37,984 bases of DNA from positions 1 through 37,984 of the IMG/VR virus record IMGVR_UViG_3300005096_000422; one strand, written 5' to 3'. The position numbers and the translations under genes were made by a program. Source of the DNA: a virus. Shown here one piece after another: positions 13,235-37,650 of the stretch. Each line of letters opens with the position of its first letter. Position 1 is the stretch's first letter. The notes beneath the pieces are model-generated. The model ran no database searches and was not told where the DNA came from. It was given only the letters and a program-made list of their open reading frames with translations.

Positions 13235-14374
13235 TTAGCGCCAGCTATTGCCAATACTAGACATGATGTCATCGTTGCCGGCAGGGCCATCGACAATCCA
13301 GCTGATACCACCGATGTGCGGGTGGACACTATCAGCTCGCAGTGATGTCGGTAATTGGCCGACTGCTACTTCGGCGGTATCCGTTGCATCCCCATTTGTG
13401 CCTAACAGGGTATTTGCATTTACATCGATATACCGGGTGCCGTATTGGGCTAAGGCCCATGAATTGAAATCATCGATATAAGTGAGCGCTACCCCTTTTG
13501 TCGTGGGGAACGTTGTCCAATTAGCCTTATTGTATGTTAGTGACAAAACCCGATAGTCGCCCATCATCTGGTCGGTCATCGCCTTAATATTGGCTTGCAG
13601 CACGGCTTGCGAATTGGTATTGAAATCATTTTGGCCAACCCAGAAAATAGTAGGTTCGCTATGCAGGTCAGGCCGGATATTAAACCGGGACAGTATCTGT
13701 GAGCTTGTCTCACCCCCTTCTGCACCGTCAAATACGTTGGGCAGCGTCCCGATCGTAGTGCGCAAATCCCAATGCACCCCCTGGTCGGGCATAGAATCAC
13801 CCCAAATAACCAACGTTTTGTCCATGTTAAACAGCTGATGATTCGCACTTAGCCCATCGTCATACAATATCCCCGTCATCCCCGCAATGTCGTACATGCC
13901 TGCGAAGTCGTAATCAAGTTGGTACGTGCCAGGGTTGCCGCCGTTATCTGATAGCTGGAAAATATGATTGCCCGTGTTAACGATAGGATATCGTAAGATC
14001 ATATTATTTTTAGTCGTTCTTACAGATAACTGCTGGGACTGGTTACCTGTATCCGGGGTCATCCACTGGCCCGCTGTATTGTCATACATCAGGACATGAA
14101 CCGATGGGTAGGTGAGAGTCTCTGATGCCGCGTAAATAGTTGGCGAACTCAACCTGATAACACACAGCATTTCCATGCCCGCTGTTAGTGGTATATTTTG
14201 CTGCCTGATGTACTGATTACCCGCCCCGTTAAATGTGACTGACGATGTGGTTACTGTCGGTGCATTACCTGCTATCCATGGGCTGAGTGTAAAATTCTCT
14301 GAATTTTGCAGGATATTTACCAGTTTCGTGAGCGGTACTGTGCCCAGTCCACCAGCTGTGGCTACCAGACTCAC
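13235..14374 (-). CDS. SGNH/GDSL-family esterase of the virion
   Basis: 379 residues. An N-terminal beta-rich domain (1 to about 180) precedes an SGNH hydrolase domain with all four blocks: WGDSM (Ser194), GAEGG at 217 to 221, GQND at 247 to 250, and DSVHP near the C-terminus (Asp348, His351). SGNH enzymes of phages typically remove O-acetyl groups from surface polysaccharides. It overlaps the 170-aa gene by 4 bp and is followed after 15 bp by the beta-helix gene, so esterase and spike are co-produced and may act in sequence on the same receptor. No signal peptide is seen, so it is probably a virion component. Confidence 0.85.
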   Translation of the reverse strand: MSLVATAGGLGTVPLTKLVNILQNSENFTLSPWIAGNAPTVTTSSVTFNGAGNQYIRQQNIPLTAGMEMLCVIRLSSPTIYAASETLTYPSVHVLMYDNTAGQWMTPDTGNQSQQLSVRTTKNNMILRYPIVNTGNHIFQLSDNGGNPGTYQLDYDFAGMYDIAGMTGILYDDGLSANHQLFNMDKTLVIWGDSMPDQGVHWDLRTTIGTLPNVFDGAEGGETSSQILSRFNIRPDLHSEPTIFWVGQNDFNTNSQAVLQANIKAMTDQMMGDYRVLSLTYNKANWTTFPTTKGVALTYIDDFNSWALAQYGTRYIDVNANTLLGTNGDATDTAEVAVGQLPTSLRADSVHPHIGGISWIVDGPAGNDDIMSSIGNSWR

Positions 14375-14960: not shown

Positions 14961-17432
14961 CTACGCCACCACACTCTTGTAGAAGGGGCGGAAATCAACC
15001 AGGTCGCCGCCGTAGACGTGGCGGATCTTGTAGGTGATCTGATCGTTGCTGAACAGAGAACCCTGAGTCGGGTTGTCCTGCACGAACAGCTCGGGCTCTT
15101 CCTGGCCGTCCATGAAACCGATCTCGATGCCCGGTATTTCCATCGGGTCAGCGGACAGCACCCAGTCATTGGGGTCAGTCCAATACCACACAGGAATCAC
15201 ATCGAGAGACAAGGTCTGGGTAAAGGTCTTGTCGTTTTCTGTGTTGCGGCGGAACAGGTTGACACCCGCCTCTTCCAGATCGCCCGGAACCAGTAGCGAC
15301 TTCGGCCCGATGCCGATGCGATCGCCACTGCCCAGCTCGGTCTGCTGCAACATCGCCAGGCGGCCGGCGGCCAGTGAAGTAGCGCTCAGCGCTGCAGTGC
15401 CCAGGTTATTATGGCCGGCGGCAAACAGCGCGACGGTGTCGTAGATAATCGGATTGGTGCGTAATAAGTCCAGCACAAACTTGGCTAGTGTGCGTTTGGC
15501 GGCGCGGCTGAGGCTGATCGGGATACGGCGTATGAAACCGACGTCATCGTTTTTGATCGCCTCGATCGACAGCGTCTCCTTACCACCACGTTTGGATGGC
15601 TTATAGGTAGCTTCCTCATCAGTTGGCGACGTCAACGCCGTGTATGGACCGTTCTCCGCCACGGCCGGCAAATCACCGTAACCGCCCCAACGCGGACGAT
15701 GCTGGGTACGGAAATCGCTCAGCGGCACTACGTTGGAGACAGGGCGCCACACATCGTACTGACCGGTTTCAGCATAGTCGGCCAGCATTACACGGTGGAT
15801 GGTGTCACCCAGGATCTGGTCAAGACCGGTGGTGCCGAGCGCTTCGCGGAATCCGGTTGCCTCACGCAATCGCGCCTGGTTACAGTCACGGAGATGACCG
15901 GTAACACGGGTGTCGCCCGTGATCTCGACGTAGCATTCCTTGAATGAGATCACATCGCGGTTGCCGGGATCGAAGAACGCCTCCAGCATTTTTGAGACCT
16001 GCTCACTGCGATCTTCGCCCATGCTGATATGGACCTGCCCACCCAGGCCGCTGACACTACCCGACTCGGTGAATGTGGCCAGGTAATCACGCTCATCCTT
16101 GATGGCAGTGGTGACCTGCGCTTCAGTGAACCGATCTATACCATCGAACTGCTTGCGCAGTTTGGTGCACGCCGCTTCCGGAAGACCACATTCCGCGATG
16201 CTGACACGCATGTTGGCGCGCGCTTCGACCATGCGCAGGGATTCGTCCAGTTGTTCCCGGCTCACGCCCTGGGCAGCAGCACCGGATTGTGCCGCCGCCG
16301 CTTCGGTGGCTTTTGGCTCAGGGAGGGTTATAGGTTTCAGCGCCTCACGGTAGGCCGTCTCCAGCGCTTCGTCATTGTCGACATCGAGCCCGTCGGGCAG
16401 GGTGCCTTTATTGGCGGCCTTGACGGCCTCGATCATACGGTCACGGAGTTTCATGTCTGCAAGTTCCTCGTGGTTCAGCGCTTCGATAAGATTGATGATT
16501 TGCCCGCCGGCGCCAGGCTCAATGATGAGATCAACAGAATTGACCTTGGTGATTTTGCGGGCCGTTCGCCGACCCTTCGCGACTTTCGCCGTGCCATTGG
16601 CGTCTATCGAGAATCCAAACAGATCCTGTGCCATGTTGCGTTGCCAGGCTTCCAACAGTTTGGCTGGTACATCATCGGCAGTTGACAGCAGCTCCAGCAC
16701 GCCTTCCAGCCTGCCCTGGTCAGTGCCACGGCCCTCGATAAACTCTGGCTTGGTAATGCGGCCGATCAGATTGCGGAAACTTTTACCCTTACCGGCCAGG
16801 TGTTCGTCATCGGACTTGACGAATACACGGGCGCCATTGAACAACGGCACGGCTTCGCGCAGGACCGCATCGGGGTAATAGTTCTTGTTGCCCGACAGAC
16901 CGGCATTGATGATCAGCACCCGCCATGTCAGGCCCTGGTCATCCTGCGACTCGATGAACACCTGCTGCGCCTCACGCATGACCACGTCGGTGTGATCGAG
17001 CACAACCTCTTTCGGCGTGCCCAGCTGCACCTGGTTGTTGTCATCGATGGTGTAGGGGTAGGCATAGCTGCGGCCGTCACGGCCGATAACGATGCGGTCC
17101 GGGTAAATCGCCTGGACATCGATGTAGACGCGATCCGGGCCACCGCCACCGATGCTTTCGCGTACCGCACGGACAACCAGCGCGGATCTGGCGCTCAGAT
17201 CACTGGCTGCCGCTTCGCGCAGTTTGGCGGGGATAAGTGACAGCAGGCTGTCGAACGAGACATCCAGCGCCTTGGCAAAGCCGCGCAACCGTTCATCCGG
17301 TGGGCGCATAATGTCACCAGCGAGGATACCCTGCAGGGTGCTCTCGGAAATGCCGCCGGCTTTCGCCAGGGCGGCCACGTTGAGCTTCTTGTCGCGCATC
17401 AGGCTGCGCAGGCGATCACCAAGTTTCGACAT
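14961..17432 (-). CDS. fusion of XRE-type HTH, prohead protease and major capsid protein
   Basis: 823 residues in one open frame. Residues 1 to about 70 are an XRE/Cro-like helix-turn-helix (LNVAALAKAGGISESTLQGI, then DERLRGFAKALDVSFDSLLS). About 150 to 310 resembles a phage prohead protease (NKNYYPDAVLREAVPLFNG, with His in DEHLAG and Ser in KSFRNLIGRI as the likely catalytic pair). A helical, charged linker follows (about 330 to 420), perhaps scaffold-like. From about 490 to the end is a major capsid protein (QARLREATGFREALGTTGLD, YKPSKRGGKETLSIEAIKND, ending YKSVVA) like Mu gpT-type head proteins. Protease-capsid fusions are known; the HTH domain at the front is unusual. Only CCC separates its ATG from the previous stop, so translation is probably coupled. 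Confidence 0.8.
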   Translation of the reverse strand: MSKLGDRLRSLMRDKKLNVAALAKAGGISESTLQGILAGDIMRPPDERLRGFAKALDVSFDSLLSLIPAKLREAAASDLSARSALVVRAVRESIGGGGPDRVYIDVQAIYPDRIVIGRDGRSYAYPYTIDDNNQVQLGTPKEVVLDHTDVVMREAQQVFIESQDDQGLTWRVLIINAGLSGNKNYYPDAVLREAVPLFNGARVFVKSDDEHLAGKGKSFRNLIGRITKPEFIEGRGTDQGRLEGVLELLSTADDVPAKLLEAWQRNMAQDLFGFSIDANGTAKVAKGRRTARKITKVNSVDLIIEPGAGGQIINLIEALNHEELADMKLRDRMIEAVKAANKGTLPDGLDVDNDEALETAYREALKPITLPEPKATEAAAAQSGAAAQGVSREQLDESLRMVEARANMRVSIAECGLPEAACTKLRKQFDGIDRFTEAQVTTAIKDERDYLATFTESGSVSGLGGQVHISMGEDRSEQVSKMLEAFFDPGNRDVISFKECYVEITGDTRVTGHLRDCNQARLREATGFREALGTTGLDQILGDTIHRVMLADYAETGQYDVWRPVSNVVPLSDFRTQHRPRWGGYGDLPAVAENGPYTALTSPTDEEATYKPSKRGGKETLSIEAIKNDDVGFIRRIPISLSRAAKRTLAKFVLDLLRTNPIIYDTVALFAAGHNNLGTAALSATSLAAGRLAMLQQTELGSGDRIGIGPKSLLVPGDLEEAGVNLFRRNTENDKTFTQTLSLDVIPVWYWTDPNDWVLSADPMEIPGIEIGFMDGQEEPELFVQDNPTQGSLFSNDQITYKIRHVYGGDLVDFRPFYKSVVA

Positions 17433-17435
17433 GGG

Positions 17436-17657
17436 CTATTCGCTGGACAGCTTTTCGCCGGCGGTGGTAACCACAACAACGTGGGTGCCGTAGTCTTTGA
17501 ATGACATAATGTCTTTGACCGGTACTGCCTTTTTGATCAGCACAGGCACACCTTTTTCGTCTGTAACGGGTTTACCGTTTTTCATCTCCGGGACCATCCG
17601 ATACACGGCCTTGGCGGCCTGTGCGGTAGTCATGGCTTTGGCAGTTTCGTCGGGCAT
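17436..17657 (-). CDS. small protein before the capsid gene, unknown
   Basis: 73 residues with a good RBS (GGAGAG, about 8 bases upstream). It is charged, with a central KNGKPVTDEKGVPVLIKKAV stretch and the end HVVVVTTAGEKL. It is the first gene after the candidate late promoter at 17739..17757 and is probably co-transcribed and translationally coupled with the protease-capsid gene. No family recognised. Confidence 0.55.
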   Translation of the reverse strand: MPDETAKAMTTAQAAKAVYRMVPEMKNGKPVTDEKGVPVLIKKAVPVKDIMSFKDYGTHVVVVTTAGEKLSSE

Positions 17658-17738
17658 TTGACTCTCCGTTTTCGATTAAACATTTCGCGCTCTACTCAGC
17701 AACAGGTGTGACCATAAAGGGACGCACTTCATTGGGCT

Positions 17739-17757
17739 ATTAAAGGGCTTTAGTATT
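17739..17757. promoter_or_regulatory. conserved dyad motif, copy A (candidate late activator site)
   Basis: ATTAAAGGGCTTTAGTATT lies in the 114-bp gap between the head morphogenesis gene and the 73-aa/capsid genes. It differs from the copy at 25005..25023 at a single base, the dyad centre. Read leftward, CTTTAT follows the dyad after 20 bases, where a -10 box would stand if an activator bound near -40. Position matches the PI late promoter of Mu. Confidence 0.6.
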
Positions 17758-17771
17758 TAGATAAAGGTGTG

Positions 17772-18686
17772 TCAGCGTCGACCGATGTCACGCAACGGCA
17801 CTGCGCTCTGCAAGCCGCGACGGAATGCACTGGCATTCAATTCATCGTTTGTGAACGGCTTGCGTTGAGGATTGGCCACGTTCCAGTGCTCCATGAGCGG
17901 CAGCGATTCACAGCCGCAGTTGATGGTCTCGCGCAGTGGGCCAGCCGGGTCACGCGGATGCATGAGCTTTACGCCGCCAATGATGAACGGCTCATCGATC
18001 GGCTGAATCTGCCCATCGGCCGCATCGTGCGAGACACGCGAGTGCAACTTGCCACTGCGCCGCCACTGTTTTTTCAGTCCGGGCAGTAACGGCTTTGCCT
18101 GTTTCATGCGTTGCTGGGTAGCTATGGAAAATGCGCGCCCGAGATTATCGCGAGTGACCGTTATAGCGCGCGAACGACCGCCTTTGGAAATTAGACCCTC
18201 AATTTTATTGATGGCATCGCCGGTGGTCTGAGCACCGATCGCCACCAGGCCCAGCTCTGTGTTGATCTTGTTGGCCAGCTGCACGCCGACATCCGCCATG
18301 CGATCGGTCATAAACGCCCGCATGGCTTCCAGCTGGCGTGTATCGATTTGCGGCAACACACCGGCAATGCTGAGACCGCCGGCAGCCAGGGGCTGATCCA
18401 CCAGGTCGAGGCCAGCCTGCCACATCGCCCGTGCGCTGACATCCAGATTAGCGGCTGCCTGAGTGCTCATGTCCTGCATGGCCTGGCGAATGGATTGTTG
18501 CAGCTGTGGTAACAGAAACACCTGAAATTCGGACGGGGTGCCAGCCAGAATACCGGCAATGCGCGCCTGCGCGGTTTTCAGCAGGCGCAAGACCTCTTCG
18601 CGTGTGTCAATCTGAATGCGTGTGCGCCGGCGCAGTACCTGGGTACGCGCCTTGCTGGCGGCGCGGTCGCGTTCCTTTTTTGTCAC
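17772..18686 (-). CDS. head morphogenesis protein (Mu gpF / SPP1 gp7 family)
   Basis: 304 residues from GTG at 18686. The N-terminal half is helical. The C-terminal part has the family signature: SRVSHDAADGQIQPIDEPF, GGVKLMHPRDPAGP, then ETINCGCESLPL (normally NCRC). In Mu and SPP1 such minor head proteins are injected or sit at the portal and are needed for infectious heads. It follows portal and terminase genes as usual. 12 bp separate it from the portal gene. Confidence 0.85.
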   Translation of the reverse strand: MTKKERDRAASKARTQVLRRRTRIQIDTREEVLRLLKTAQARIAGILAGTPSEFQVFLLPQLQQSIRQAMQDMSTQAAANLDVSARAMWQAGLDLVDQPLAAGGLSIAGVLPQIDTRQLEAMRAFMTDRMADVGVQLANKINTELGLVAIGAQTTGDAINKIEGLISKGGRSRAITVTRDNLGRAFSIATQQRMKQAKPLLPGLKKQWRRSGKLHSRVSHDAADGQIQPIDEPFIIGGVKLMHPRDPAGPLRETINCGCESLPLMEHWNVANPQRKPFTNDELNASAFRRGLQSAVPLRDIGRR

Positions 18687-18698
18687 GGATCAGTTCAC

Positions 18699-20180
18699 TT
18701 ACGCAGCGGCATTAACTTTCTTGCCGGGGGAACTCGGATCGGAGGTTGTAAAGGCATCCTTTTCAGCTTCGGCAGCGGCTTCTTCCAGTGCTGTTTCCAG
18801 CTCGGTTGCCGTATCGAACTCCACGCCCAAACGCGCCGATACCTTTTCTATAATCTGCAGCGCACGCTCACGTGACAGGAGACCGTTGGTAATCAGCATG
18901 GCGGCTGCCGTTGTAACCTGCATGAGCGCTGTGGCGTAGTCGCTGATGTCATCGTCAACCATGTCCGGCCACTGCACGTCGAACTGATAGATATCATCGA
19001 ACAGATCCGGTTCGCCATCGTTGTTGGCCAGTGCCTCCTGGCGGATGACGTATTTCCCGATTTCGGCCAGGATATACCCCAGATAGGTCTGGCGCATTTT
19101 GAAGATCTTGAACGTCGGCCCAGACATTTCACTGGCCGTTGCACGGTTCACATCACCGCCACCGCCATACCAATGTTCCGGCAGGGTCGCACCACCCATC
19201 ACGTGGTTGCGGAACAGCCTGGCGTTTTCGCTGGAATCGCCAGCCTGCAGGTCGGGGGTGACCGCTTCCCATTTCTCTGCATCGTTATGCACGCGGACAC
19301 TGTTGGGGCTGGGTGGACGGATTTGCTTGGCCCGCTCTGTGATTTCGTCCGGTGTCGCACCGGTGAGAGTGATATCCCACATGAAGGCGCGCATAAACTG
19401 GGCACGATCAATCTCGCCAAACAGAAACTGGTCAAACGCATCCAGCCAGTCGATTTGCGCCAGCAGGTCAGAACGGCCACGGCTACCATTAGATAGATCA
19501 TTTACTGTGAAGTAGAAAGCCTCACCGTCGGTAAACGTCTCGCGGATCTGGCGTGTGCGCTCCGTGAACAAGGCCTGCTCATCACCATTAATAATGACAC
19601 GATAGCGCCGCGCCACGCCTTTGCCATTTTTGGTTGTGATCACACCGATCGGTTGCTCGGCGTTATCCGGGTCCATGACCACGGTGGCAATGTTGGACGG
19701 GTCCAGATAACCGAGCCGCACATGGCCATTCATCTCATTCACAAAGGTTGGCCAGCATTGTTCGCCATACAGTGACAGCTCACGGGCTTTCTTGACCAGC
19801 TTCAGGTCCATCTGGTTGATGGGATCTTTCCAGAACCTGTCCAGTAGATCCTGAATGGATTCGTCAGGTGCGACCAGGCGAACACCTTCGGCCAGTAAAA
19901 AAGCCAGCGGCAGTTCGATGATGCGGTTGGCCAGCAGGTTCGACTCCCACAGGTACACCGAGAGTTTCTGCATGCGCAGTTGTGTCATCGGTGACAGATC
20001 GCGCTTGTTGTTGCTACCGATGCGGCGCCATTGGTTTTCGTCGTCATCCACGGTGACGCCGGCGGCTTCTTTGAATTTCACCTCAGCATCTGCCAGGGAA
20101 TCACCAGCAGGCGATGTGTGTGCCTCCGCACCATCTAACCATTTCCAGAAACGTGTGATCCATGTCATATCCATCATCAT
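18699..20180 (-). CDS. portal protein
   Basis: 493 residues. Features of phage portals: QLRMQKLSVYLWESNLLANR near the N-terminus, GEQCWPTFVNEMNGHVRLGY, TDGEAFYFTVNDLSNGSRGR and a helical clip/wing region, then the acidic C-terminus. It forms the dodecameric DNA gate at one capsid vertex and docks the terminase. The first codons are ATGATGATGGATATG, so the exact start (20180 to 20168) is uncertain; the first overlaps the terminase stop. Gene order terminase, portal, gpF matches Mu gp28, gp29, gp30. Confidence 0.85.
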   Translation of the reverse strand: MMMDMTWITRFWKWLDGAEAHTSPAGDSLADAEVKFKEAAGVTVDDDENQWRRIGSNNKRDLSPMTQLRMQKLSVYLWESNLLANRIIELPLAFLLAEGVRLVAPDESIQDLLDRFWKDPINQMDLKLVKKARELSLYGEQCWPTFVNEMNGHVRLGYLDPSNIATVVMDPDNAEQPIGVITTKNGKGVARRYRVIINGDEQALFTERTRQIRETFTDGEAFYFTVNDLSNGSRGRSDLLAQIDWLDAFDQFLFGEIDRAQFMRAFMWDITLTGATPDEITERAKQIRPPSPNSVRVHNDAEKWEAVTPDLQAGDSSENARLFRNHVMGGATLPEHWYGGGGDVNRATASEMSGPTFKIFKMRQTYLGYILAEIGKYVIRQEALANNDGEPDLFDDIYQFDVQWPDMVDDDISDYATALMQVTTAAAMLITNGLLSRERALQIIEKVSARLGVEFDTATELETALEEAAAEAEKDAFTTSDPSSPGKKVNAAA

Positions 20181-21928
20181 GCTGCCCGTTGTCTGTATTC
20201 CAACCTCACACCCAGTGCGACAGGTGCGCTAAGCGGTTTTATAAAATCTTTACAAGCCACGATCACAGGTTCGTTGCGGCATCCGTAGCGCCTCGGCGGT
20301 GATCGCCGCTTACAACGGCTCTCAGGCGGCCACCGTTTTAACGCACGCGTCCCCTTGAACATCGAAACCCGGCGACGTCCATGTGCAGCCTGCGGGACAT
20401 ACGCATCCTCCGGTGTAGCCTCAATGGTCTCACCGGCAGGCGGTTGTCCTTCGACCTGTGTTGCCATCCAGGCGAGCAGGCCAGCGATGGCACTGTCACC
20501 GTGCCGGTATTCGCCATCGCTGCCTTTGTCGCGGCCATCGTCCATACGTGGTCGGCCTTTATCCAGTACCACCCGCCGGTGGTCCGCGATGACGTCTTCA
20601 CTTTGCGGCACAATGATCGATCGATCTTCGAACGCCGTGCGGTATTTCGGGAAACTGGTGCTGTACCACTGTGGCGTGGCCATGACGCATTCGACCTTGG
20701 TGAGGCCATAACGCTGCAGCGCGGCCTCAGCGTGAGACTGTCCGTTGCCACGCGCATCGAACTTGGAATGGTGGAGCAGTGGCAAGTTGTCCATGATGTA
20801 AAACAGAATCAGCTGTTGCACGTCGAACGGGATGCGCCGCAGTTCGAGCATGAAACCGGTGCGCCAGCTCTCCGGCTTGTCTTGCTGCAACACCCAGATC
20901 ACGGACAGGTCACCATTGCGGCCGAAATCCTGACCGAGCACTGAGCGCTGGTCGGTCGGCAGGGCATCGATGACAGGCTTCAAGTTGTCATTGATCCAGG
21001 ACTGTGCTTCGCTCAGGCGATTGTCATCGAGCACCCATTCCGGGGGCTGGGTATAACGGACAATGGGGATGCCCTCGACGGCACAGCGCTCGATGAGTGT
21101 GCGCGGGATATACACGCCGCTTCCTCGTCGGGGTATACAGTCCAGTTCCTCGTCAGCGGCATCACCATATTGACTGCGGATCGAATCCCGGAATTCAGTC
21201 TCAGCTTCCTCGCTCCATTCCTTGCCCTGCACCAGGCAGATGCGCTGGTAAAACCCTTCGGCGAGCGCTTCATCGAACGTCGTGCGGTGTAGTGAGTAAG
21301 GCCGCTTGCCCGCGCGGATCTCACGGATCAGCTGGTTGAACTCGTTGTCGTCACCGTTATGGGTGGAGACCACATCGACACGGCCACCCCACATCAGGAA
21401 CGCCAGTGAGGCCTTGAGCAGCTCGCCCAGCTCCGGGTGGAATGCCGCTTCATCGATGCGTGCATGGCCCTGGCGGCCACGGAAGTTGTGCGGGTTGGAA
21501 CTCAGCGCCTCGACCTTATGGCCAGAGGCAAATTTGATGCTGTACTTGACGATGTCACGCCGCTCGTTTTCGATGACGGCGTGTTCCAGGCCAACATCGA
21601 TGGCGCCGGCCACCAGGCCGAAGGCGCGTGCAAAAAAGGCTACGTCGCCGATGTACTCGGCTGCCATGGGCAGATTGTAGCCGACATAGAACTGATCCAT
21701 GCCATCCTGCTCAGCCGCCTCCAGTGCACTTTCCGCCGCCATGCCGCCCCACGTCCAGCCAATGCGGCGGGATTTCTCAGCGACGCGCACCTGGGATTTG
21801 TCTTCGTGCCAGCGGATTTGATAGGGCAACAGAATATAGGGGACATCCATATCCTCCATGCCCTGGGCACGCTCTGCCTGGATTTCATCCACCAGGTCCA
21901 GGTATTCTTTTTTCTGGTCGTTATCCAT
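20177..21928 (-). CDS. large terminase subunit (Mu gp28-like)
   Basis: 583 residues from ATG at 21928, which overlaps the small-subunit stop (ATGGATAA); a longer frame starting at 21988 would lie inside that gene. Domains: ATPase with a deviant Walker A (AEKSRRIGWTWGG), Walker B (HARIDEAAFH) and STHNGDDNEF coupling motif, then an RNase H-like nuclease with GQDFGRNGDLSVIWV and later HGDSAIAGLLAW. It cuts and pumps phage DNA into proheads. The last 50 or so residues are arginine-rich (RWPPESRCKRRSPPRR and on) and look unlike a normal end; a one-base shift in the TTAAAACGG run would end the protein after KTVAA. The extension overlaps the portal start. Confidence 0.9.
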   Translation of the reverse strand: MDNDQKKEYLDLVDEIQAERAQGMEDMDVPYILLPYQIRWHEDKSQVRVAEKSRRIGWTWGGMAAESALEAAEQDGMDQFYVGYNLPMAAEYIGDVAFFARAFGLVAGAIDVGLEHAVIENERRDIVKYSIKFASGHKVEALSSNPHNFRGRQGHARIDEAAFHPELGELLKASLAFLMWGGRVDVVSTHNGDDNEFNQLIREIRAGKRPYSLHRTTFDEALAEGFYQRICLVQGKEWSEEAETEFRDSIRSQYGDAADEELDCIPRRGSGVYIPRTLIERCAVEGIPIVRYTQPPEWVLDDNRLSEAQSWINDNLKPVIDALPTDQRSVLGQDFGRNGDLSVIWVLQQDKPESWRTGFMLELRRIPFDVQQLILFYIMDNLPLLHHSKFDARGNGQSHAEAALQRYGLTKVECVMATPQWYSTSFPKYRTAFEDRSIIVPQSEDVIADHRRVVLDKGRPRMDDGRDKGSDGEYRHGDSAIAGLLAWMATQVEGQPPAGETIEATPEDAYVPQAAHGRRRVSMFKGTRALKRWPPESRCKRRSPPRRYGCRNEPVIVACKDFIKPLSAPVALGVRLEYRQRAA

Positions 21929-22478
21929 CGACCCTGATGCCGAGGATCTCGGCGCGGATCTGCGAAGCCACACCGGCACTGAGGCCACCCTTGCCGGCCA
22001 GCGCCGCCACCTTCTCGGCCGCTGCGGCAGTCTTGCGCTCCAGTTCCTCGCGCACCTCGTTACGCCATTCCTTGACCTTGACGGATGCGCGTGTCAGTCG
22101 TGCCACCATAAGACCGATTTTGTTCAGTGCCGCCGGATCGGGTTCGTCTCCCAGCTCCATGAGTATTTCGAACGTCTGGGTCTGCACCAGGCGGATCAAC
22201 GCTTCATTCATGTCGCCCTGGTCATCGTCGGAGCCTGCCGACAGCGCTTTTGCCTGCTCGGTTGCGACGCGCATTTTCTCCAGGCGATCTTCGAACTTTT
22301 TGCCGTGGCGCCATAATGCCGTGCGGCTGATGCGCAGTTCTATACCTGCCTCTGCTATCTGATCGTTCAGCCAATCAAGGAGGACGTCATAATTCTGAAA
22401 ACCCGCCTGTACCAGACGGGCGTTCAGCCGTTCTCTGATATTGTCAGGGAGTTGCAACATGCTGGATCGGCGCGGCAT
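21921..22478 (-). CDS. small terminase subunit (Mu gp27-like, DUF3486)
   Basis: 185 residues from ATG at 22478 (MPRRSSMLQLPDNIRERLNA), which overlaps the preceding stop as TAATG; a TTG start at 22496 is less likely. The N-terminus with LPDNIRERL, GFQNYDVLLDWLNDQ and SRTALWRHGKKFEDRL is typical of the DUF3486 family, which supplies DNA recognition for packaging in Mu-like phages. A long helical region with alanine-rich C-terminus follows. The large subunit starts inside its stop. Confidence 0.85.
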   Translation of the reverse strand: MPRRSSMLQLPDNIRERLNARLVQAGFQNYDVLLDWLNDQIAEAGIELRISRTALWRHGKKFEDRLEKMRVATEQAKALSAGSDDDQGDMNEALIRLVQTQTFEILMELGDEPDPAALNKIGLMVARLTRASVKVKEWRNEVREELERKTAAAAEKVAALAGKGGLSAGVASQIRAEILGIRVDG

Positions 22479-22654
22479 TAGGCCCAAACCAACCAAGCGG
22501 CAGCGCCAAATAACACTGTGAAAAAAGCTGAACTAGGCGCAGGCGAGCTACCAAAAAATATGTCATCAAAGACACTCAACGCCATCCGAAGTGAACCGAT
22601 GCCTAAAAAAACAGCAAAGATTTGTCGAAGAACCATTATCCAGCAATCGAGCAT
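22478..22654 (-). CDS. 58-residue membrane protein, unknown
   Basis: A short gene that joins its neighbours exactly: ATG overlaps the previous stop (TAATG) and its TAA overlaps the next ATG (TAATG). It begins MLDCWIMVLRQIFAVFLGIG and ends FFTVLFGAAAWLVWA, so it probably has two membrane segments split by a short loop with FGSSPAPSS. The perfect coupling argues that it is real. A lysis-related or accessory role is possible. Confidence 0.6.
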   Translation of the reverse strand: MLDCWIMVLRQIFAVFLGIGSLRMALSVFDDIFFGSSPAPSSAFFTVLFGAAAWLVWA

Positions 22655-22833
22655 TAGAAAAGCCCTCTGGTGGCACGCTCACCGGTGTAATGGATGGCAT
22701 AGACAACCACCATGGCCAGCACAATAACCAGGAGCGGTGGCCAGGTGGTTATGACAAACAGCAACACACCGGCGCCAACCGCAGCCAACGCCGTGAGCAG
22801 GTAAAAACACGCCTCGCTGATCCAGTAACGCAT
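22654..22833 (-). CDS. 59-residue membrane protein, unknown (holin-like size)
   Basis: Starts with ATG overlapping the previous gene's TGA (TGATG) and ends at TAA 22654..22656 shared with the next start. MRYWISEACFYLLTALAAVG and LLVIVLAMVVVYAIHYTG give two hydrophobic helices with a charged tail (GERATRGLF). Small two-helix proteins near lysis genes can be holins or accessory holins, but a larger holin-family protein is present at 23511..24122. Confidence 0.6.
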   Translation of the reverse strand: MRYWISEACFYLLTALAAVGAGVLLFVITTWPPLLVIVLAMVVVYAIHYTGERATRGLF

Positions 22834-23141
22834 CAGTATGTAACCGGCCGCGCAATACCTCGACTTTCGGCTCGTGGGTTCTCAATAAAATCAACGCCCG
22901 CCGGCAGCAGACGTGCTTCCCAGTGCGATCCGGCTTCCTTGATATCAAGAAACTTCTTGTCGCAGAGGTACTGTAATGCCCGACGGATTTCATGCTGTGT
23001 GGCACGAAGATCAGCATCGCTCAGGATCTCGAACAGCAGGCCTTCGCCAACGGGATAGGGGCGTCCGGCATCGAGCACTTTAAGAATGCGATAGCGGATC
23101 ATTTTTGTCCGCGCTTGCTCCAGGTGTATTTGATCATTCAT
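22833..23141 (-). CDS. winged-helix protein (Mu gp26-position)
   Basis: 102 residues: RYRILKVLDAGRPYPVGEGL, then helices (DADLRATQHEIRRALQYLCD), KKFLDIKEAG and WEARLLPAGVDFIE. This is a winged-helix DNA-binding pattern. Mu-like phages carry a similar small protein directly before the small terminase, where Mu has gp26; the role is unknown, perhaps in packaging or regulation. It overlaps the gene after it as TGATG and abuts the gene before it. Confidence 0.6.
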   Translation of the reverse strand: MNDQIHLEQARTKMIRYRILKVLDAGRPYPVGEGLLFEILSDADLRATQHEIRRALQYLCDKKFLDIKEAGSHWEARLLPAGVDFIENPRAESRGIARPVTY

Positions 23142-23503
23142 TATCCAGCGTCTCCATTTTTGGGCATGTTGTCGAGCGCGCGTTGTACATTTAACGTCAG
23201 GGTTTGCAGTGCATGCGCATGTCCATCCACTTTGGCCTCGATGATGGCGCTGTAACGAATGTGATCTTCTCTGCGCACGTACTCCCTGGGCAACTCGGCC
23301 TTCAGTTCAAGAAAGGATTTTTCAACCCGGTCAATTTTTGCCGATTCTCTCTCGAGCGATTTTCCAAGCCCGTCAAGCCGTGCCGTGAGTGCGCCCTGCA
23401 GGCGATTCACGAGCCACCCGACGACTGCCCAGGTACTGCCCAAGACAAATAAAAATGCCGGAATTAAGATTGCGGCAGCCCTGATAATTTCGTCAGTCGT
23501 CAT
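23141..23503 (-). CDS. membrane-anchored coiled-coil protein (Mu gp25-like, DUF2730)
   Basis: 120 residues from ATG at 23503, just after the holin gene stop; a start at 23542 would lie inside that gene. One N-terminal membrane segment (AAAILIPAFLFVLGSTWAVV) is followed by a coiled coil (RLDGLGKSLERESAKIDRVE) and a helical tail. This matches DUF2730 proteins found before the gp26/gp27 genes in Mu-like phages. Function is unknown; it may take part in lysis or membrane contact. Confidence 0.65.
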   Translation of the reverse strand: MTTDEIIRAAAILIPAFLFVLGSTWAVVGWLVNRLQGALTARLDGLGKSLERESAKIDRVEKSFLELKAELPREYVRREDHIRYSAIIEAKVDGHAHALQTLTLNVQRALDNMPKNGDAG

Positions 23504-23510
23504 TAATGTC

Positions 23511-24122
23511 TCAATCGCGTAAGTTGATCGGTTTCGTGGCAAAACGTTGTGCGATCATGGTCAGAAGTCCTGGCGCAGGTTGCTGTCCGGCGGCGATCTG
23601 CTTGTCTTGCGAGCGCTTGGCGATCGAGACGCCCAGAATCGACAGGGCCACACCCCATAACACCATCAACGGGCCGAGCAAGCCGGCCAGAGCCGAGATA
23701 ACAACGCTGGCCGAGGTCGGCTCTTCCACCACCACATAGCCGACGATGATCATCAGCCCGATCATCTGCACCGACCAGGTGAAAGCGGCGGCATAGCCAT
23801 ACGTCGGCCGCCAGCGTCGCACATAGGGGTCTAAACTCGCCGCCTCGGCACGTATGGTCTGGTTGATTTCAGACAGGCGCGCCGTCTCGGCCTCGATCTG
23901 CATGCGCTGGAGTTCCGCCGCATGCGTTAACTCCAGTTCACGAATGCGCGTCAGTACCGCCGGATCGGCCTGCAACACGCTAGCCACCGCAGCTGGGTTG
24001 TTGTCCACACCCATAGCGTTGGCCACCATGGCACCTACAGCGCCACCCGCTGGTCCACCCAAAAGACTGCCAATCAGAGGTGCCACTTTTGCCACGCTCT
24101 GCCCAATCGCTGACCAGTTCAT
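23511..24122 (-). CDS. holin-family protein (three membrane segments)
   Basis: 203 residues from ATG at 24122, overlapping the previous stop as ATGA; the frame is open further upstream but that part is another gene's shadow. The N-terminus is glycine-rich (GSLLGGPAGGAVGAMVANAM), followed by a helical AELQRMQIEAETARLSEINQ stretch, an RRWRP motif and membrane segments (TWSVQMIGLMIIVGYVVV; VVISALAGLLGPLMVLWGVA). This matches the 3-TM holin family known from gene-transfer-agent and Mu-like phage lysis cassettes. It lies just after the endolysin genes. Confidence 0.75.
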   Translation of the reverse strand: MNWSAIGQSVAKVAPLIGSLLGGPAGGAVGAMVANAMGVDNNPAAVASVLQADPAVLTRIRELELTHAAELQRMQIEAETARLSEINQTIRAEAASLDPYVRRWRPTYGYAAAFTWSVQMIGLMIIVGYVVVEEPTSASVVISALAGLLGPLMVLWGVALSILGVSIAKRSQDKQIAAGQQPAPGLLTMIAQRFATKPINLRD

Positions 24123-24226
24123 GGTGTTGCTCCTGGCACCACCAGCCGGCCAATCAATACGGCCAGTACCAGGATGATGCCGATGGCCGCCATAAATCCG
24201 GTAACGGCACACTTAGGTAGGTACAT
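24119..24226 (-). CDS. 35-residue single-pass membrane peptide
   Basis: A tiny gene, start ATG at 24226 inside the 3' end of the previous gene, stop overlapping the holin start (ATGA). MYLPKCAVTGFMAAIGIILV continues into a second half, LAVLIGRLVVPGATP, giving one membrane helix. The exact coupling to the holin suggests a lysis-cassette component, but no spanin features such as a lipobox are clear. Confidence 0.5.
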   Translation of the reverse strand: MYLPKCAVTGFMAAIGIILVLAVLIGRLVVPGATP

Positions 24227-24389
24227 GCAACAACTCCTGCAGTTCGGTGAGCTTGTGGTTGGCGGCGGCCAGCCGCATGGCGCGTTCGGTGAGTCGATCG
24301 CAAAGGACGTGCACCAGCTCGCTGCCATCGGCATGTGACGAGCAGTGGTCGACCAGTTGCGAATCGGTCATGTGCTCTAACCTGTCCAT
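24213..24389 (-). CDS. 58-residue lysis-region protein
   Basis: ATG at 24389 overlaps the endolysin stop (TAATG). The protein (MDRLEHMTDSQLVDHCSSHA, later RAMRLAAANHKLTELQELLH) is helical with a possible short coiled coil, without a signal peptide or membrane segment. It may be a lysis regulator or unrelated small protein. A longer frame to 24446 lies inside the endolysin gene. Confidence 0.5.
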   Translation of the reverse strand: MDRLEHMTDSQLVDHCSSHADGSELVHVLCDRLTERAMRLAAANHKLTELQELLHVPT

Positions 24390-24970
24390 TAATCCGGCGT
24401 TGTCCGTTCGATATGCAGCAACAGCCGGAATAATCGGTTGTTCCACCCACGCAAAAATTTACTGAGTTTGCTGTTTGCCAGGGTGATGTTGCGGTAGTAC
24501 TCGGCGCGGTAGCCGAGATAGTCGACGATGAAATCAGGATTCTGCGACATCGCCCGCTGCGCAGCACCAAGCGTCTTCGGACCGATTTTTCCATCCATTT
24601 TCACGTTCAGTGCTTCTTGCAGGATTTTCACCGCACGACTGATACCGGCATTCACGGCCATGTCGAACACTGCAATATTGAGCCGGCCTGGCAGATCATC
24701 TGCACGGACACCAACCCAGAAGTGATTCCAGTACAGCGAGGCGGCATCGCCGGGTGTCAGCGCACGGATGTCGTCGGCATCAACGTCGCCATCACCATCG
24801 ATATCGCCCAGCTTGCCCTGCGATAAAAGGAAGCGCAGCGATATGCCGTACTTGGTCGTACCACCTGGATCATCAGGGTCATCGGACAGCAAGCCCTCAG
24901 CCTGGAAAATCCAGTTCAGGGCATTTGCGACGTTATCTGGGTAAGCGGAAAGATCAGGCATCCTGTTCAT
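24389..24970 (-). CDS. endolysin, GH108 family muramidase
   Basis: 193 residues. The GH108 signature is at 23 to 43: AEGLLSDDPDDPGGTTKYGI, with Glu25 as the likely catalytic acid. VGVRADDLPGRLNIAVFDMA and AVNAGISRAVKILQEALN follow in family order, and DGKIGPKTLGA is a peptidoglycan-binding style motif. It should hydrolyse the glycan backbone of peptidoglycan for lysis. At 55 to 70 there is an EF-hand/dockerin-like insert, GDIDGDGDVDADDIRAL, which may bind calcium. There is no N-terminal signal, so release should depend on the holin. It is the first late gene; no clear RBS precedes the ATG. Confidence 0.9.
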   Translation of the reverse strand: MNRMPDLSAYPDNVANALNWIFQAEGLLSDDPDDPGGTTKYGISLRFLLSQGKLGDIDGDGDVDADDIRALTPGDAASLYWNHFWVGVRADDLPGRLNIAVFDMAVNAGISRAVKILQEALNVKMDGKIGPKTLGAAQRAMSQNPDFIVDYLGYRAEYYRNITLANSKLSKFLRGWNNRLFRLLLHIERTTPD

Positions 24971-25004
24971 GGAGACAGGATGTGGGAGTGGGTCGGTGGG
25001 GGAT

Positions 25005-25023
25005 ATTAAAGTGCTTTAGTATT
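25005..25023. promoter_or_regulatory. conserved dyad motif, copy B (candidate late activator site)
   Basis: ATTAAAGTGCTTTAGTATT lies 35 bp upstream of the endolysin ATG, the head of the leftward late operon. It differs from copy A at one base. No good -35 box is near, and the -10 region is poor, as expected for an activator-dependent promoter. The position corresponds to the Plys late promoter of Mu. The rest of 24971..25160 shows nothing recognisable. Confidence 0.6.
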
Positions 25024-25160
25024 GACCGGCATCTTGTGTTGCGATGAGAAAAACATCATAACCAAGCAGTGAGAATATCAGCTGCAATAAGCACCTTCTT
25101 TGCAGTCGTCTTGATTGTTGATTATGTGCGATTTATTTTTGAATAAACTTGAAAAATGGC

Positions 25161-25189
25161 TTGACTGTAATTAAATAATAGGCTAGACT
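25161..25189 (+). promoter_or_regulatory. sigma70-type promoter for the 65-aa gene
   Basis: TTGACT at 25161..25166 and TAGACT at 25184..25189 are separated by exactly 17 bp in an AT-rich stretch. A start near 25196 would give a short leader with GGAGA (25226..25230) before the ATG at 25237. Confidence 0.7.
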
Positions 25190-25236
25190 ATATTCAAGAG
25201 TTAAGAAAGACCGAAACTTAATACCGGAGAGAGAAA

Positions 25237-25434
25237 ATGAGCATAACTGAAAATGACATCAACGAGATCCGCGAAATCAAAGCAAGTATTAAATCAGCAG
25301 AAAAAAGCCTTGATCGTTTTATGGATTGTGATTTGTCAGATACAACAGCAAGAAAAGAGATGCGTGACATTCTGGCATCAATTACCGAAATGGAAGTGAA
25401 GCTGTCCAATAAATTAGCATCTTTAGAAAAATGA
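25237..25434 (+). CDS. small coiled-coil protein, unknown
   Basis: 65 residues with a strong RBS and its own promoter. It is charged and helical throughout (SITENDINEIREIKASIKSA, then SITEMEVKLSNKLASLEK), likely a coiled coil. It overlaps the next gene as ATGA, making a two-gene operon facing the lysogeny genes. Its DNA is more AT-rich than the surroundings. It may be a regulator partner or a late-acquired accessory gene. Confidence 0.65.
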   Translation: MSITENDINEIREIKASIKSAEKSLDRFMDCDLSDTTARKEMRDILASITEMEVKLSNKLASLEK

Positions 25435-25625
25435 GTCACGGTGGCAAAAGAAAGGGGGCTGGAAGGCCCCCGATTGACCCACGGATGGTTAAGGTTCCGG
25501 TAGGGTGGAAGTTACCCCAATGGCTGGTTGAGTGGATCAGAGAGCAAGACAAACCGGCCTCGCATTTGGTGGAAGAAGCACTGTGTAAATGTCACAAGTT
25601 AAAACCACCGAGAAATCGGCATTAA
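25431..25625 (+). CDS. small DNA-binding-like protein (AT-hook-like N-terminus)
   Basis: 64 residues. The start has an AT-hook-like GGKRKGAGRPP, followed by KVPVGWKLPQWLVEWIREQ and SHLVEEALCK, which resembles short ribbon-helix-helix proteins of phages and plasmids. It ends with a basic tail. Its stop overlaps the convergent lipoprotein stop, and the dyad motif copy C lies on that junction. A transcriptional regulator is the best guess. Confidence 0.6.
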   Translation: MSHGGKRKGAGRPPIDPRMVKVPVGWKLPQWLVEWIREQDKPASHLVEEALCKCHKLKPPRNRH

Positions 25626-25639
25626 AGAGCTTTAGTCTT
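25621..25639. promoter_or_regulatory. conserved dyad motif, copy C
   Basis: ATTAAAGAGCTTTAGTCTT sits exactly where two convergent genes end; it contains both stop codons and encodes the last residues (TKAL) of the lipoprotein. It differs from copies A and B only at the dyad centre and near the 3' end. No gene start lies directly beyond it on either strand, so a pure promoter role is not obvious here. Confidence 0.5.
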
Positions 25640-26209
25640 GCTCGATGTGCGTGGACTACCCCATGCCATGCGGTAGAAAGCGCGGAATGCCGGCCTGGCC
25701 ATAGTTAACAGGTCTCCAGAAAATATACCCTCAGCATAGCCGTGCATCATATCTACACGCGCGACAACATGGTTACCATCAACCAGACGATCAATAATTT
25801 CTCGGGTGACGAAGTACTCCCGTGAAGACCAGTTTGTTGGACCAGCATAGCTACCTGCAGTCGTAGTCCGGATCTCCGTGACACTATCGATTGCGTGGAG
25901 CGAGATTACCCTGCCATCGACATTAAACTTCAATGACTGACCATCAATGATGTTATAGGCACCTTTTACCGTCGCAACCATGACAGCAGTTCCATCGTCC
26001 ATCGTAGACCGCCAACGCAGACTCAACTTGACATCTCCTTCTGTCCAGGCGGGTTCCATATAAAGTTCACGCGCACCATCAAATTCAGACCTTTCTTCAG
26101 TGATATAACCCGGCGCACCAGGCAGAGATGCCAGCTGATCTACTGTTGCACAAGCACCTACCAGTAACGCAATCAGGCATGCAGTGAAAACCGTTTTGAT
26201 GTAGCTCAT
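25622..26209 (-). CDS. lipoprotein, unknown, probably lysogeny-expressed
   Basis: 195 residues from ATG at 26209, with GGGAG about 9 bases upstream; the longer frame to 26272 has no comparable RBS. Residues 1 to 20 (MSYIKTVFTACLIALLVGAC) form a lipoprotein signal with lipobox LVGAC, so Cys20 should be lipidated. The residue after it is Ala, which favours outer-membrane sorting in Gram-negative cells. The mature part is beta-rich with DGTAVMVATVKGAYNIIDG and GRVISLHAIDSVTEIRTTT. It is downstream of the repressor and DUF4177 genes on the same strand, so it is likely expressed in the lysogen; superinfection exclusion or envelope alteration is possible. Confidence 0.7.
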   Translation of the reverse strand: MSYIKTVFTACLIALLVGACATVDQLASLPGAPGYITEERSEFDGARELYMEPAWTEGDVKLSLRWRSTMDDGTAVMVATVKGAYNIIDGQSLKFNVDGRVISLHAIDSVTEIRTTTAGSYAGPTNWSSREYFVTREIIDRLVDGNHVVARVDMMHGYAEGIFSGDLLTMARPAFRAFYRMAWGSPRTSSKTKAL

Positions 26210-26272
26210 ATCAATCACTCCCATCTCGTTTTTCTGACGGTGAAATCCAGAATTCCGGTTTTCTCGCTTCAT

Positions 26273-26286
26273 CTAAAAAGATTTAG
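26273..26286. promoter_or_regulatory. dyad, possible degenerate relative of the A-C motif
   Basis: CTAAAAAGATTTAG has the same arm geometry (5-bp arms, 4-bp centre) as CTAAAGCNCTTTAA of copies A to C. It lies 64 bp upstream of the lipoprotein start. Similarity is limited to the arms. Confidence 0.3.
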
Positions 26287-26296
26287 CACCTTATGA

Positions 26297-26572: not shown

Positions 26573-26573
26573 T

Positions 26574-27080: not shown

Positions 27081-27094
27081 TTTGCGTCGCCTTG

Positions 27095-27152: not shown

Positions 27153-27173
27153 ATGGAGCATCGAGTATAGACC

Positions 27174-36285: not shown

Positions 36286-36752
36286 GAAACATGAGCGATC
36301 CCAGAAAAACCGACCTGGCCAAAATCCATATCGCCCGCAAGGATCTCCACCTGGATGAGGAGACCTACCGCTGTGTCATTCGAGAGATCGGCAAGGTGGC
36401 TTCCGGCAGTTCGAAAGACCTTACACCAACCGGCAGAGCACGTGTGCTGGCCCATTTCCGGTCGAAAGGGTGGAAGCCGAGGCGCGCAAAAAGAACGCCT
36501 CGGAAATCGCAGGGTATGGCGTCTGCCGGCCAGATCAAAAAAATAAAGGATCTCTGGATATCTCTTGCTGATGCGGGCGTAGTGAGAGCACCAGGTGAGG
36601 ATGGGCTGCGCGCTTGGCTGACGTCAGCAACTCGCAAGATGCATCCCGCGCATACCGGCTATCACGCAGTTGAATTTCTACCTGACGGAGTCGCAATAAA
36701 TGTTATCGAGCAACTCAAGAAATGGGCATCGCGTTGTAAGGTTCGGCTATGA
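36282..36752 (+). CDS. gemA: GemA (Mu gp16-like, DUF1018)
   Basis: 156 residues from ATG at 36282 (or 153 from 36291). KIHIARKDLHLDEETYRCVI, REIGKVASGSSKDLTPTGRA and VLAHFRSKGWKP are the DUF1018 signature; QGMASAGQIKKIKDLWISLA and HAVEFLPDGVAINVIEQLKK close the domain. In Mu gemA lies just upstream of mor and affects host DNA supercoiling and gene expression; the order is the same here. Overlaps mor by 4 bp. Confidence 0.85.
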   Translation: MRNMSDPRKTDLAKIHIARKDLHLDEETYRCVIREIGKVASGSSKDLTPTGRARVLAHFRSKGWKPRRAKRTPRKSQGMASAGQIKKIKDLWISLADAGVVRAPGEDGLRAWLTSATRKMHPAHTGYHAVEFLPDGVAINVIEQLKKWASRCKVRL

Positions 36753-37102
36753 ATGACCAATACCGCAGTCGAGGGCCTGAGCTGCTGATAGACCTGGTGG
36801 ACAAGACAGCCAAGGTCTTGGAACAGGAAGCCGGGTTATCGCCTGAGACGGCCCGTATGTGCGCCGAGGCTGTCGGCCACCAGATGCGGCAGGAATGGGG
36901 TGGTCAACAGGTCTACTTCCCAAAAGGGGCTGCCGTCGATATCTCTGCTCGGGACCGTCAGTTATATGACGAGTTCGATGGCCAAAATCACGTTGCCCTC
37001 GCCCGGAAATACAACCTGTCCGTCCAGTGGGTTTACCAGCGTGTCAAAGCTGTTCAGGCTGCTGAGGCGTCCCGCCGCCAGGTCGATTTGTTCACCGACT
37101 GA
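36749..37102 (+). CDS. mor: Mor-family transcription activator
   Basis: 117 residues, last early gene. The N-terminal dimerisation part (LLIDLVDKTAKVLEQEAGLS) leads to GGQQVYFPKGAAVDISARDR and a C-terminal helix-turn-helix (DEFDGQNHVALARKYNLSVQ, then WVYQRVKAVQ), all typical of Mor/C proteins. Mu Mor activates the middle promoter and C the late ones by binding a dyad near -43 and contacting RNA polymerase. Only one such gene is present, so it may drive the late genes directly. Confidence 0.9.
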   Translation: MNDQYRSRGPELLIDLVDKTAKVLEQEAGLSPETARMCAEAVGHQMRQEWGGQQVYFPKGAAVDISARDRQLYDEFDGQNHVALARKYNLSVQWVYQRVKAVQAAEASRRQVDLFTD

Positions 37103-37344: not shown

Positions 37345-37353
37345 TGTTTTTCG

Positions 37354-37610: not shown

Positions 37611-37650
37611 CTCGCTCTGTGCCAGGTACGACCCGGATTAACCCACCTTT

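Follow-up and report, generated by a model that had tools for sequence, protein, structure and literature searches.

Near-identical palindromes at putative Mor-dependent late promoters of a B3-type transposable phage, with a third copy at a cassette end

To our knowledge, detailed understanding of late gene control in transposable phages comes mainly from phage Mu. In the 37,984-nt IMG/VR virus contig analysed here (the window), three near-identical 16-bp palindromes raise the question of whether they are control sites, which genes they would serve, and which protein would read them. The three copies are as follows.

17739..17754, minus strand: copy A, ACTAAAGCCCTTTAAT on the minus strand; putative Mor operator for the I-type late promoter of the protease/capsid genes
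25005..25020, minus strand: copy B, ACTAAAGCACTTTAAT; putative Mor operator of the lysis late promoter
25621..25636, strand unassigned: copy C, ACTAAAGCTCTTTAAT on the minus strand; core as in A and B, overlapping two convergent gene ends

The first-pass annotation had regarded the three dyads as too similar to be explained by chance, and our scans confirm this. In the whole window, ATTAAAGNGCTTTAGT has perfect plus-strand matches at 17739, 25005 and 25621, and these are still the only places when up to 3 mismatches are allowed (6 matches counting the other strand); the scan of 100 shuffles gives a mean of 0.52 and a largest value of 4. The core TAAAGNNCTTTA has 3 copies, against a mean of 0.01 and a maximum of 1 in 200 shuffles. 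The identity of the copies at 17 of 19 positions also holds by eye, and the arms of A and B are symmetric at 6 of 7 pairs. That is, the three 16-bp dyads are genuine and beyond chance. The "weaker relative" proposed at 26273..26286 falls below the threshold of our operator-plus-hexamer scan, by which no further operator-promoter site in the window reaches the score. Across four MAG genomes with relatives, of 3.9, 5.5, 3.1 and 4.3 Mb, the 10-base core is found 2, 0, 4 and 0 times, respectively.

Since 0.01 core copies are expected by chance, it is extremely improbable that the copies are chance AT-rich palindromes. The same holds for the ends of a mobile element: B and C are indeed direct repeats 616 bp apart that flank a two-gene cassette, but copy A lies well away from it, and the dyads of relatives (below) lie at gene starts.

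The surroundings of A and B point to promoters. The features concerned are all on the minus strand.

17772..18686, minus strand: head morphogenesis gene (Mu F-like), ending just before copy A; phrog_2468 at 1.9e-29
17711..17716, minus strand: TATGGT, the putative I-type -10 hexamer, which begins 23 nt past dyad A
17436..17657, minus strand: gene that comes first after copy A, encoding a 73-aa protein with 63% identity to its counterpart in L061
14961..17432, minus strand: protease-capsid fusion (Phage_capsid_4 and head maturation protease families), presumably transcribed from the copy A promoter
24977..24982, minus strand: CATCCT, the putative lysis-promoter -10 hexamer, which begins 23 nt past dyad B
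24389..24970, minus strand: endolysin (Glyco_hydro_108 + PG_binding_3 in family searches), first gene after copy B

On the minus strand, A and B each have an NANNNT -10 hexamer at one spacing, 23 nt past the dyad, and the dyad centre lies at about -42.5 relative to the predicted start point. By eye, neither site has a -35-like hexamer at the usual distance, and the -10 hexamers themselves (CATCCT, TATGGT) are poor. The endolysin ATG is 6 nt further on from CATCCT, and GGAGAG upstream of the 73-aa gene is, by eye, a possible Shine-Dalgarno sequence. The layout of the window is that of a B3-type transposable phage; the head morphogenesis gene scores 26.3 bits against Pfam Phage_Mu_F, slightly below the cut-off of 29.6. 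Neither the minus-strand working direction nor the fixed-distance -10 had been described in the first-pass annotation.

We have also considered whether the dyads are intrinsic terminators or RNA hairpins that several gene boundaries have in common. The dyads of L065, L067 and RcapMu are strong hairpins followed by T-rich stretches, and a terminator-like hairpin adjoins copy C. At A and B, the stable hairpin with U-tract of an intrinsic terminator is lacking: their RNA does not fold (minimum energy -0.2 kcal/mol with z +0.87 for A, -1.3 kcal/mol with z +0.73 for B), and a terminator role is unsupported for these two. Fixed hexamer spacing and covariation with Mor (below) would likewise be unexpected for terminators, and this reading is very improbable. 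On these grounds, we reject the chance, terminator and mobile-end readings.

Conservation in relatives bears on the promoter reading. An exact motif scan of IMG/VR returned 57 stretches and is by itself uninformative; the only one with broad DNA similarity to the window is L006, which is from the same contig as L061. Around copy A, the L061 DNA is 82% identical to the window, and copy A is unchanged within a 26-base invariant stretch; its -10 hexamer is kept within the invariant block CCTTTATGGTCACACCTGTTG. At the late promoters of other relatives, a different dyad, particular to each phage, is present in 2, 3 or 4 copies. A motif search in related phages, as had been proposed earlier, finds equivalent dyads before corresponding kinds of genes, including GH108 lysozyme and Mu I-type protease genes (in L072, endolysin and protease). 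The "lys" label is positional, as the first gene in L065 encodes an SNase homologue and those in L064, L081 and L080 are unassigned by family search. In ten other records (nine phage types), the own dyad occurs twice per contig, each time with a -10; the exceptions are L138, whose contig has three copies, and L135, with an extra copy inside a coding gene (38195), which we have set aside as chance. In L065 the last T of the hexamer is missing at both sites. In L131 (terminase identity 68%), the dyads are TTTAAATCACTTTAAT and TTTAAATCAGTTTAAA, each followed by its hexamer at 23. Matrix scans served to pick or confirm the sites of L072, L131, KP12 and PhiKM, and a hexamer-requiring scan those of L114, so all these sites are not independent of the dyad-hexamer rule.

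In the strict pair test, dyad pairs were detected without the hexamer, which was scored afterwards. Of 108 listed loci, 74 offered sufficient sequence on the sides of the terminase gene; 6 of them (L066, L074, L144, L145, L133 and L160) were removed by hand as duplicates of listed loci, on the basis of equal match figures, leaving 68 loci, or 63 clusters at 90% terminase identity. Any dyad pair is present in 21 loci, and in 10 of these 21 the hexamer is at 23–25, which means that 10 of 68 loci pass (9 of 63 clusters, L064 and L081 being one type with 96% terminase identity) and 58 fail. The 19 other spacing triplets give 0–2 loci each, and each of 20 shuffle rounds gives 0. Actually, 7 of the 10 passing loci come from the set on which the 23–25 spacing was first read; among the 47 loci fetched after that readout, 3 pass (L135, L136 and L137), against 0–1 at other triplets.

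Isolate phages show both the rule and its limits. B3 and Fc02 resemble the window in that mor is the last gene of an early operon running against the late genes, and in having repeated dyads, which precede the lysis, protease and tape-measure genes with the hexamer at 23 (24 at the Fc02 protease site). They differ in having a third promoter and in the dyad itself, which is TTTCG-N6-CGAAA in B3 and of the TTTCG type with TTCCAAA in Fc02. With up to 2 mismatches, the B3 pattern has 13 near-matches on the Fc02 plus strand, from which we selected the three sites; a scan of both strands for TTTCGNNNNTTCCAAA with up to 1 mismatch gives these three alone. They fit the three late clusters of the published RNA-seq, which are reported as sequential, not simultaneous (PMC9936078). 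Komp_PAO1_1 (Pseudomonas), KP12 (Klebsiella) and PhiKM (Escherichia), whose Mor proteins are 44%, 46% and 46% identical to that of the window, share with it TTTAA-type dyads and the hexamer at 23. Komp_PAO1_1 has four sites, found without the matrix, KP12 four weaker ones, and PhiKM three in the 22-kb piece examined, compared with two promoters in the window; the dyads of KP12 and PhiKM are less perfect. When ten named phages were put through the pair test, the lysis and protease position pair was found only in B3 and YPCBV-1 and not in Mu, D3112, RcapMu, martha, MuM16, PhiKM or Mae-JY22, and KP12 gave a weak pair at another place. RcapMu does carry a repeated dyad at the lysis/protease places, with hexamers starting at 26 and 25.

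Which protein reads the dyads? The window encodes one candidate of the Mor/C activator family, at the end of the early operon.

36749..37102, plus strand: Mor/C-family activator; PF08765 at 114.7 bits against a curated cut-off of 24.9; phrog_532 at 1.5e-35

It is the only PF08765 match in the window. Its phmmer matches are to the chains of Mu C (PDB 9l0x and 9vw8, both annotated as late transcription activator C) and of Mor (1rr7, annotated as middle operon regulator), and a search of IMG/VR with the protein gave no relative. In the 12 phages for which we have both dyad and Mor gene in hand, identity of the Mor HTH correlates with identity of the dyad half-site (Spearman 0.55), and the correlation persists given the terminase (partial 0.58; 0 of 5000 permutations), whereas terminase identity itself shows no correlation with the dyad (-0.02). 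That is, the dyad sequence follows the Mor DNA-binding domain, not the terminase. This result argues against another reader, although the window also encodes a CI-like repressor, an HTH domain in the protease-capsid protein and the 64-aa cassette protein, any of which might bind such operators. The dyad replaces the -35 as in Mu, and the contigs with the closest homologues of the 64-aa protein lack a window-type dyad in the pieces compared, so we consider a non-Mor regulator improbable.

The Mor site of the Mu middle promoter Pm is a symmetric element of 16 bp, with its centre at -43.5, and stands in for the -35 (PMC4390567). On that description, A and B are alike in having a 16-bp symmetric element instead of a -35, a recognisable -10 at fixed spacing and a Mor/C-family protein; they differ in sitting at late promoters, in near-identical copies, with one Mor/C gene found. 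In position they correspond to the Mu lys and I promoters, B preceding the endolysin gene and A the 73-aa and protease-capsid genes; these two Mu promoters have a 10-bp match in common (PMC4461284). In Mu, four promoters (lys, I, P and mom) depend on C within a Mor-then-C cascade, whereas in the window we have found neither P- or mom-type promoters nor a separate C gene. In Mu itself, the pair test reveals no comparable dyad pair, and no convincing site came from scans of its lys, I and middle regions.

Overall, A and B are very probably Mor-read operators of the protease/capsid and lysis late promoters, acting on the minus strand; this confidence applies to A and B and not to copy C. The first-pass annotation had proposed them as late activator operators at the Mu lys and I positions with Mor as candidate, and comparison strongly supports it for these two, through the fixed -10 spacing, the missing -35, the dyads of relatives, the covariation with the Mor HTH and the agreement with Fc02 RNA-seq. 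From what can be read directly in the DNA, namely the dyads, their spacing, the missing -35, the conservation and the Mor gene, we infer Mor binding at A and B, activation and the start points. Bound to each 16-bp dyad, with its centre ~42.5 bp upstream of the start point where a -35 element would normally act, the Mor/C protein would bring the host RNA polymerase to a -10 that is weak by itself. Copy B would launch a lysis and packaging transcript, with the endolysin AUG at or beside the predicted +1, and copy A a protease, capsid and tail transcript.

On the other hand, copy C breaks the promoter rule. It lies among the following features.

25161..25189, plus strand: predicted sigma-70-like cassette promoter, TTGACT-17-TAGACT
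25237..25434, plus strand: 65-aa cassette gene, between B and C; no family match
25431..25625, plus strand: 64-aa cassette protein; 77–78% identical homologues in two contigs
25622..26272, minus strand: 216-aa gene; phrog_7678 (unknown function), lipoprotein-like by eye (LLVGAC)

Copy C had been called intergenic, which is wrong, as it holds the stop codon of the 64-aa gene (plus strand) and, on the minus strand, the 3' end of the 216-aa coding sequence with its stop. No NANNNT hexamer starts 22–26 nt from it in either direction, so the fixed-spacing -10 of a Mor/C-type operator-promoter is missing, and the doubt expressed earlier that this copy fits was justified. The two contigs with 64-aa homologues have no other match to 31 tested window genes in the pieces compared; by eye, a stretch very similar to the cassette promoter precedes the homologues in L230 and L231. 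For the 216-aa protein, neither the IMG/VR pattern scan nor a search among phages gave relatives, and no isolate phage DNA matches window positions 24300–27200.

Copy C would then be an operator core without a promoter, placed where a foreign two-gene cassette ends, beside the lysis promoter. We lean slightly towards its having been left or brought in by the insertion of the cassette. A somewhat less probable reading is that copy C works as a solo operator, at which bound Mor blocks or silences the convergent cassette and 216-aa transcripts, or which titrates Mor, late in infection. Its core is kept amid flanks unlike those of A and B, which suggests selection, and the shuffle scan rules out chance for this copy too; yet it may be a recent junction relic, and in the contigs of the ten other records the sole other copy without a -10 sits inside a coding gene.

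Based on the above analyses, the rule is a self-matching 16-bp dyad with the start of a -10 at 23–25 nt beyond it, seen at lysis and protease genes and in some cases at tail genes. By this rule, late promoters should be readable from sequence in a subset of transposable phages, including B3, Fc02 and Komp_PAO1_1, and the dyad sets offer a natural data set for the recognition code of the Mor family. Our literature searches, which covered mainly openly available papers, found no recognisable description of such paired dyads, and we do not claim that they are absent from print. A wider generalisation is tentative and, taken as a whole, rather unlikely: across a broad range of transposable phages, one Mor may act directly on 2 to 4 near-identical palindromic promoters that account for all late transcription, the Mor–DNA code being readable and the mRNAs of the first late genes (lysins, proteases, baseplate) often being leaderless with the AUG as their first bases, and here an extra promoterless operator may let Mor silence a foreign cassette during lytic growth.

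The rule also predicts leaderless late mRNAs, since an ATG lies 6–7 nt past the -10 at 10 of the 29 tabulated sites, B included and A not; the 29 contain near relatives (window A with L061, and L064 with L081). It further suggests a correction of a gene start in B3. At the lysis sites of L136, L072 and L080, an in-frame start codon overlapping the hexamer is also present.

We have found all three dyads claimed by the first-pass annotation, copies A (17739), B (25005) and C (25621), and no other site in the window comes within 3 mismatches. Their core, TAAAGNNCTTTA, occurs 3 times against 0.01 expected in the window, whose record, an IMG/VR virus contig, has no host. The late genes are on the minus strand in the order endolysin, terminase, portal, F-like gene and protease-capsid fusion, the transposase and ATPase genes are on the plus strand, and the annotated layout of Pseudomonas phage B3 is the same. 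As the late genes are on the minus strand in a B3-like layout, the dyads are best read on that strand, as ACTAAAGCNCTTTAAT.

24389..24970, minus strand: endolysin (GH108), first of the late genes
14961..17432, minus strand: protease-capsid fusion, last of the late-gene stretch described
36749..37102, plus strand: Mor/C-family gene, downstream of the transposase and ATPase genes, the only one found in the window

In a relative whose terminase is 94% identical to the window's (L061), the DNA around copy A is 82% identical, and copy A is kept unchanged within a 26-base invariant stretch. A second block invariant between the two, CCTTTATGGTCACACCTGTTG, lies downstream of copy A and contains TATGGT, which begins 23 nt past the dyad; CATCCT stands at the equivalent place (23 nt) past copy B. 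No close relatives spanning copies B and C were found.

Other relatives carry different, repeated 16-mers, such as GCGGAACTGGTTCCGC twice in L064, GGTGACACCTGTCACC twice in L080 and CCTCAAGNNCTTGAGG twice in L087; the scan that found them made no use of the hexamer, and its listing also includes chance-like pairs from GC-rich loci. When dyads upstream of gene starts are aligned, NANNNT, the candidate -10, begins 23, 24 or 25 nt past the dyad, with the T missing at two L065 sites. A dyad pair flanks the terminase in 21 of the 68 loci tested. The hexamer at 23–25 nt, equally spaced in both copies, is present in 10 of the 68, which represent nine of 63 terminase clusters and of which 7 belonged to the set used to read off the spacing. 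Each of 19 other spacing triplets gave 0 to 2 loci over the same 68, and 20 rounds of shuffled sequence gave none. Among 47 later loci, 3 pass at 23–25 nt versus 0–1 for other spacings. The remaining 58 of the 68 fail this strict test, although weaker sites exist in some of them (L072, L131, KP12). In L131 (terminase 68% identical), two TTTAA-type dyads both show spacing 23; the second, ~7.5 kb past the terminase gene and upstream of a 78-codon frame, is taken as the probable I position because L135 and L136 offer a parallel.

In Mu, Mor binds a symmetric element of 16 bp, centred at -43.5, which substitutes for the -35 (PMC4390567). With the hexamer set as -12 to -7, the dyad centre falls at -42.5 for spacing 23 (the window, L072, L131, L135, L136) and up to -44.5 for spacing 25. 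In addition, across 12 phages the identity of the Mor HTH region correlates with dyad half-site identity (Spearman 0.55, 0/5000 permutations); the partial correlation controlling for terminase identity is 0.58 (0/5000), or 0.59 (p 0.0004) with L081 and L114 left out; terminase identity by itself is no predictor of the dyad (-0.02, p 0.50). For example, L067 and L137 share both CCGGAA...TTCCGG and the Mor stretch TTRW[IV]R[RK]ICN. From the fixed hexamer spacing, the pairs in relatives and this covariation, we conclude that copies A and B, earlier proposed as late operators, are most probably Mor-dependent late promoters, and we infer that Mor binds and activates them.

Some of these promoters may give leaderless transcripts. 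Counting an ATG if it opens at least 60 codons, we found it 7 nt past the hexamer at 8 of 29 tabulated sites and 6 nt past at 2, with at most 2 sites at any other distance. Copy B is among them, at the endolysin start, where no clear Shine-Dalgarno sequence is visible by eye; copy A would not be leaderless by this reading. Of 12 isolate sites checked later (B3 3, Fc02 2, Komp 4, KP12 3), four have the ATG at 6–7 nt (B3 protease 19887, Fc02 protease 20152, Komp 17480, KP12 30083), one has an ATG at 8 nt and one a GTG at 6 nt. The protease start annotated in B3 (19857) is placed ahead of the predicted late -10; a better fit is the ATG at 19887.

The copy number varies. The contigs of ten further records, some fragmentary and two from one phage type, were found to contain two copies apiece of the phage's own dyad, both followed by a -10; the exceptions are L135, where one more copy lies within a coding gene, and L138, where there are three copies, every one with a -10. 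The L138 contig (G029) has its Mor-type dyads at 12075, 19203 and 33085, on both strands, and its mor gene opposes the terminase; it possibly contains two Mu-like phages. Komp_PAO1_1 has four sites, though its own sites were part of the scoring matrix; weaker sites number four in KP12 and three in the PhiKM piece. YPCBV-1 has a pair upstream of the membrane/holin region and of the peptidase. B3 has three dyads, upstream of holin, protease and tape measure, as has the B3-like Fc02, whose three dyads are related (11815, 20152 and 25682; spacings 23, 24 and 23). Strand-specific RNA-seq of Fc02 describes three sequentially transcribed late clusters on the strand of the dyads (PMC9936078, section 3.2), cluster 1 opening with holin-endolysin and packaging genes and cluster 2 holding mainly virion structural genes; as that text gives clusters rather than base-level starts, the agreement is by number and gene content. 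The dyad/-10 rule is not universal: among ten named phages tested, only B3 and YPCBV-1 yielded a pair at the lysis and protease positions, and Mu and D3112 yielded none. RcapMu has CCGGACCTGTGTCCGG upstream of both endolysin and protease, at hexamer spacings of 26 and 25. In RcapMu, L065 and L067 the dyad doubles as a strong hairpin, perhaps combining terminator and operator; copies A and B are not hairpins.

L271 (RcapMu) 13945..13969 and 22366..22389: terminator-like hairpins extending late dyads
L065 3046..3077: the same
L067 1562..1587: the same

Copy C overlaps the 3' ends of two convergent genes, and the first-pass doubt about it was justified: no NANNNT starts 22–26 nt away in either direction, its minus-strand matrix score is 13.2, where A reaches 23.9 and B 25.2, and its flanks are unlike theirs. 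Copy C could conceivably act as a lone operator with a silencing function, though we consider this somewhat doubtful. Two plus-strand genes occupy the B–C interval, and the second encodes a 64-aa protein with 77–78% homologues in two contigs (L230, L231), in whose examined pieces no match was seen to the 30 further window genes tested. A very similar promoter precedes these homologues, and homology ends ~10 bp short of copy C.

Window 25155..25625; L230 4490..5190; L231 1345..1885: small cassette with TTGAC-GTAATTA-like promoter, differing first gene and conserved 64-aa protein

Since the homologues are in contigs whose examined pieces show no other such match and homology ends near copy C, this copy would mark the edge of a foreign cassette, and a relic of the junction or an imported operator is the reading we prefer. 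The cassette's occurrence in contigs otherwise unlike the window phage resembles that of a mobile moron.

Residues 7–68 of the protease-capsid protein form an HTH domain of the Cro/C1 type (HTH_26, 40 bits); as residues 1–197 are 90% identical in L061, the fusion looks real. Near the contig end there is a perfect 24-bp inverted repeat (arms 37353..37376 and 37588..37611, 211 nt apart). Within the endolysin, the aspartate-rich stretch GDIDGDGDVDADD presumably resembles a calcium-binding loop.
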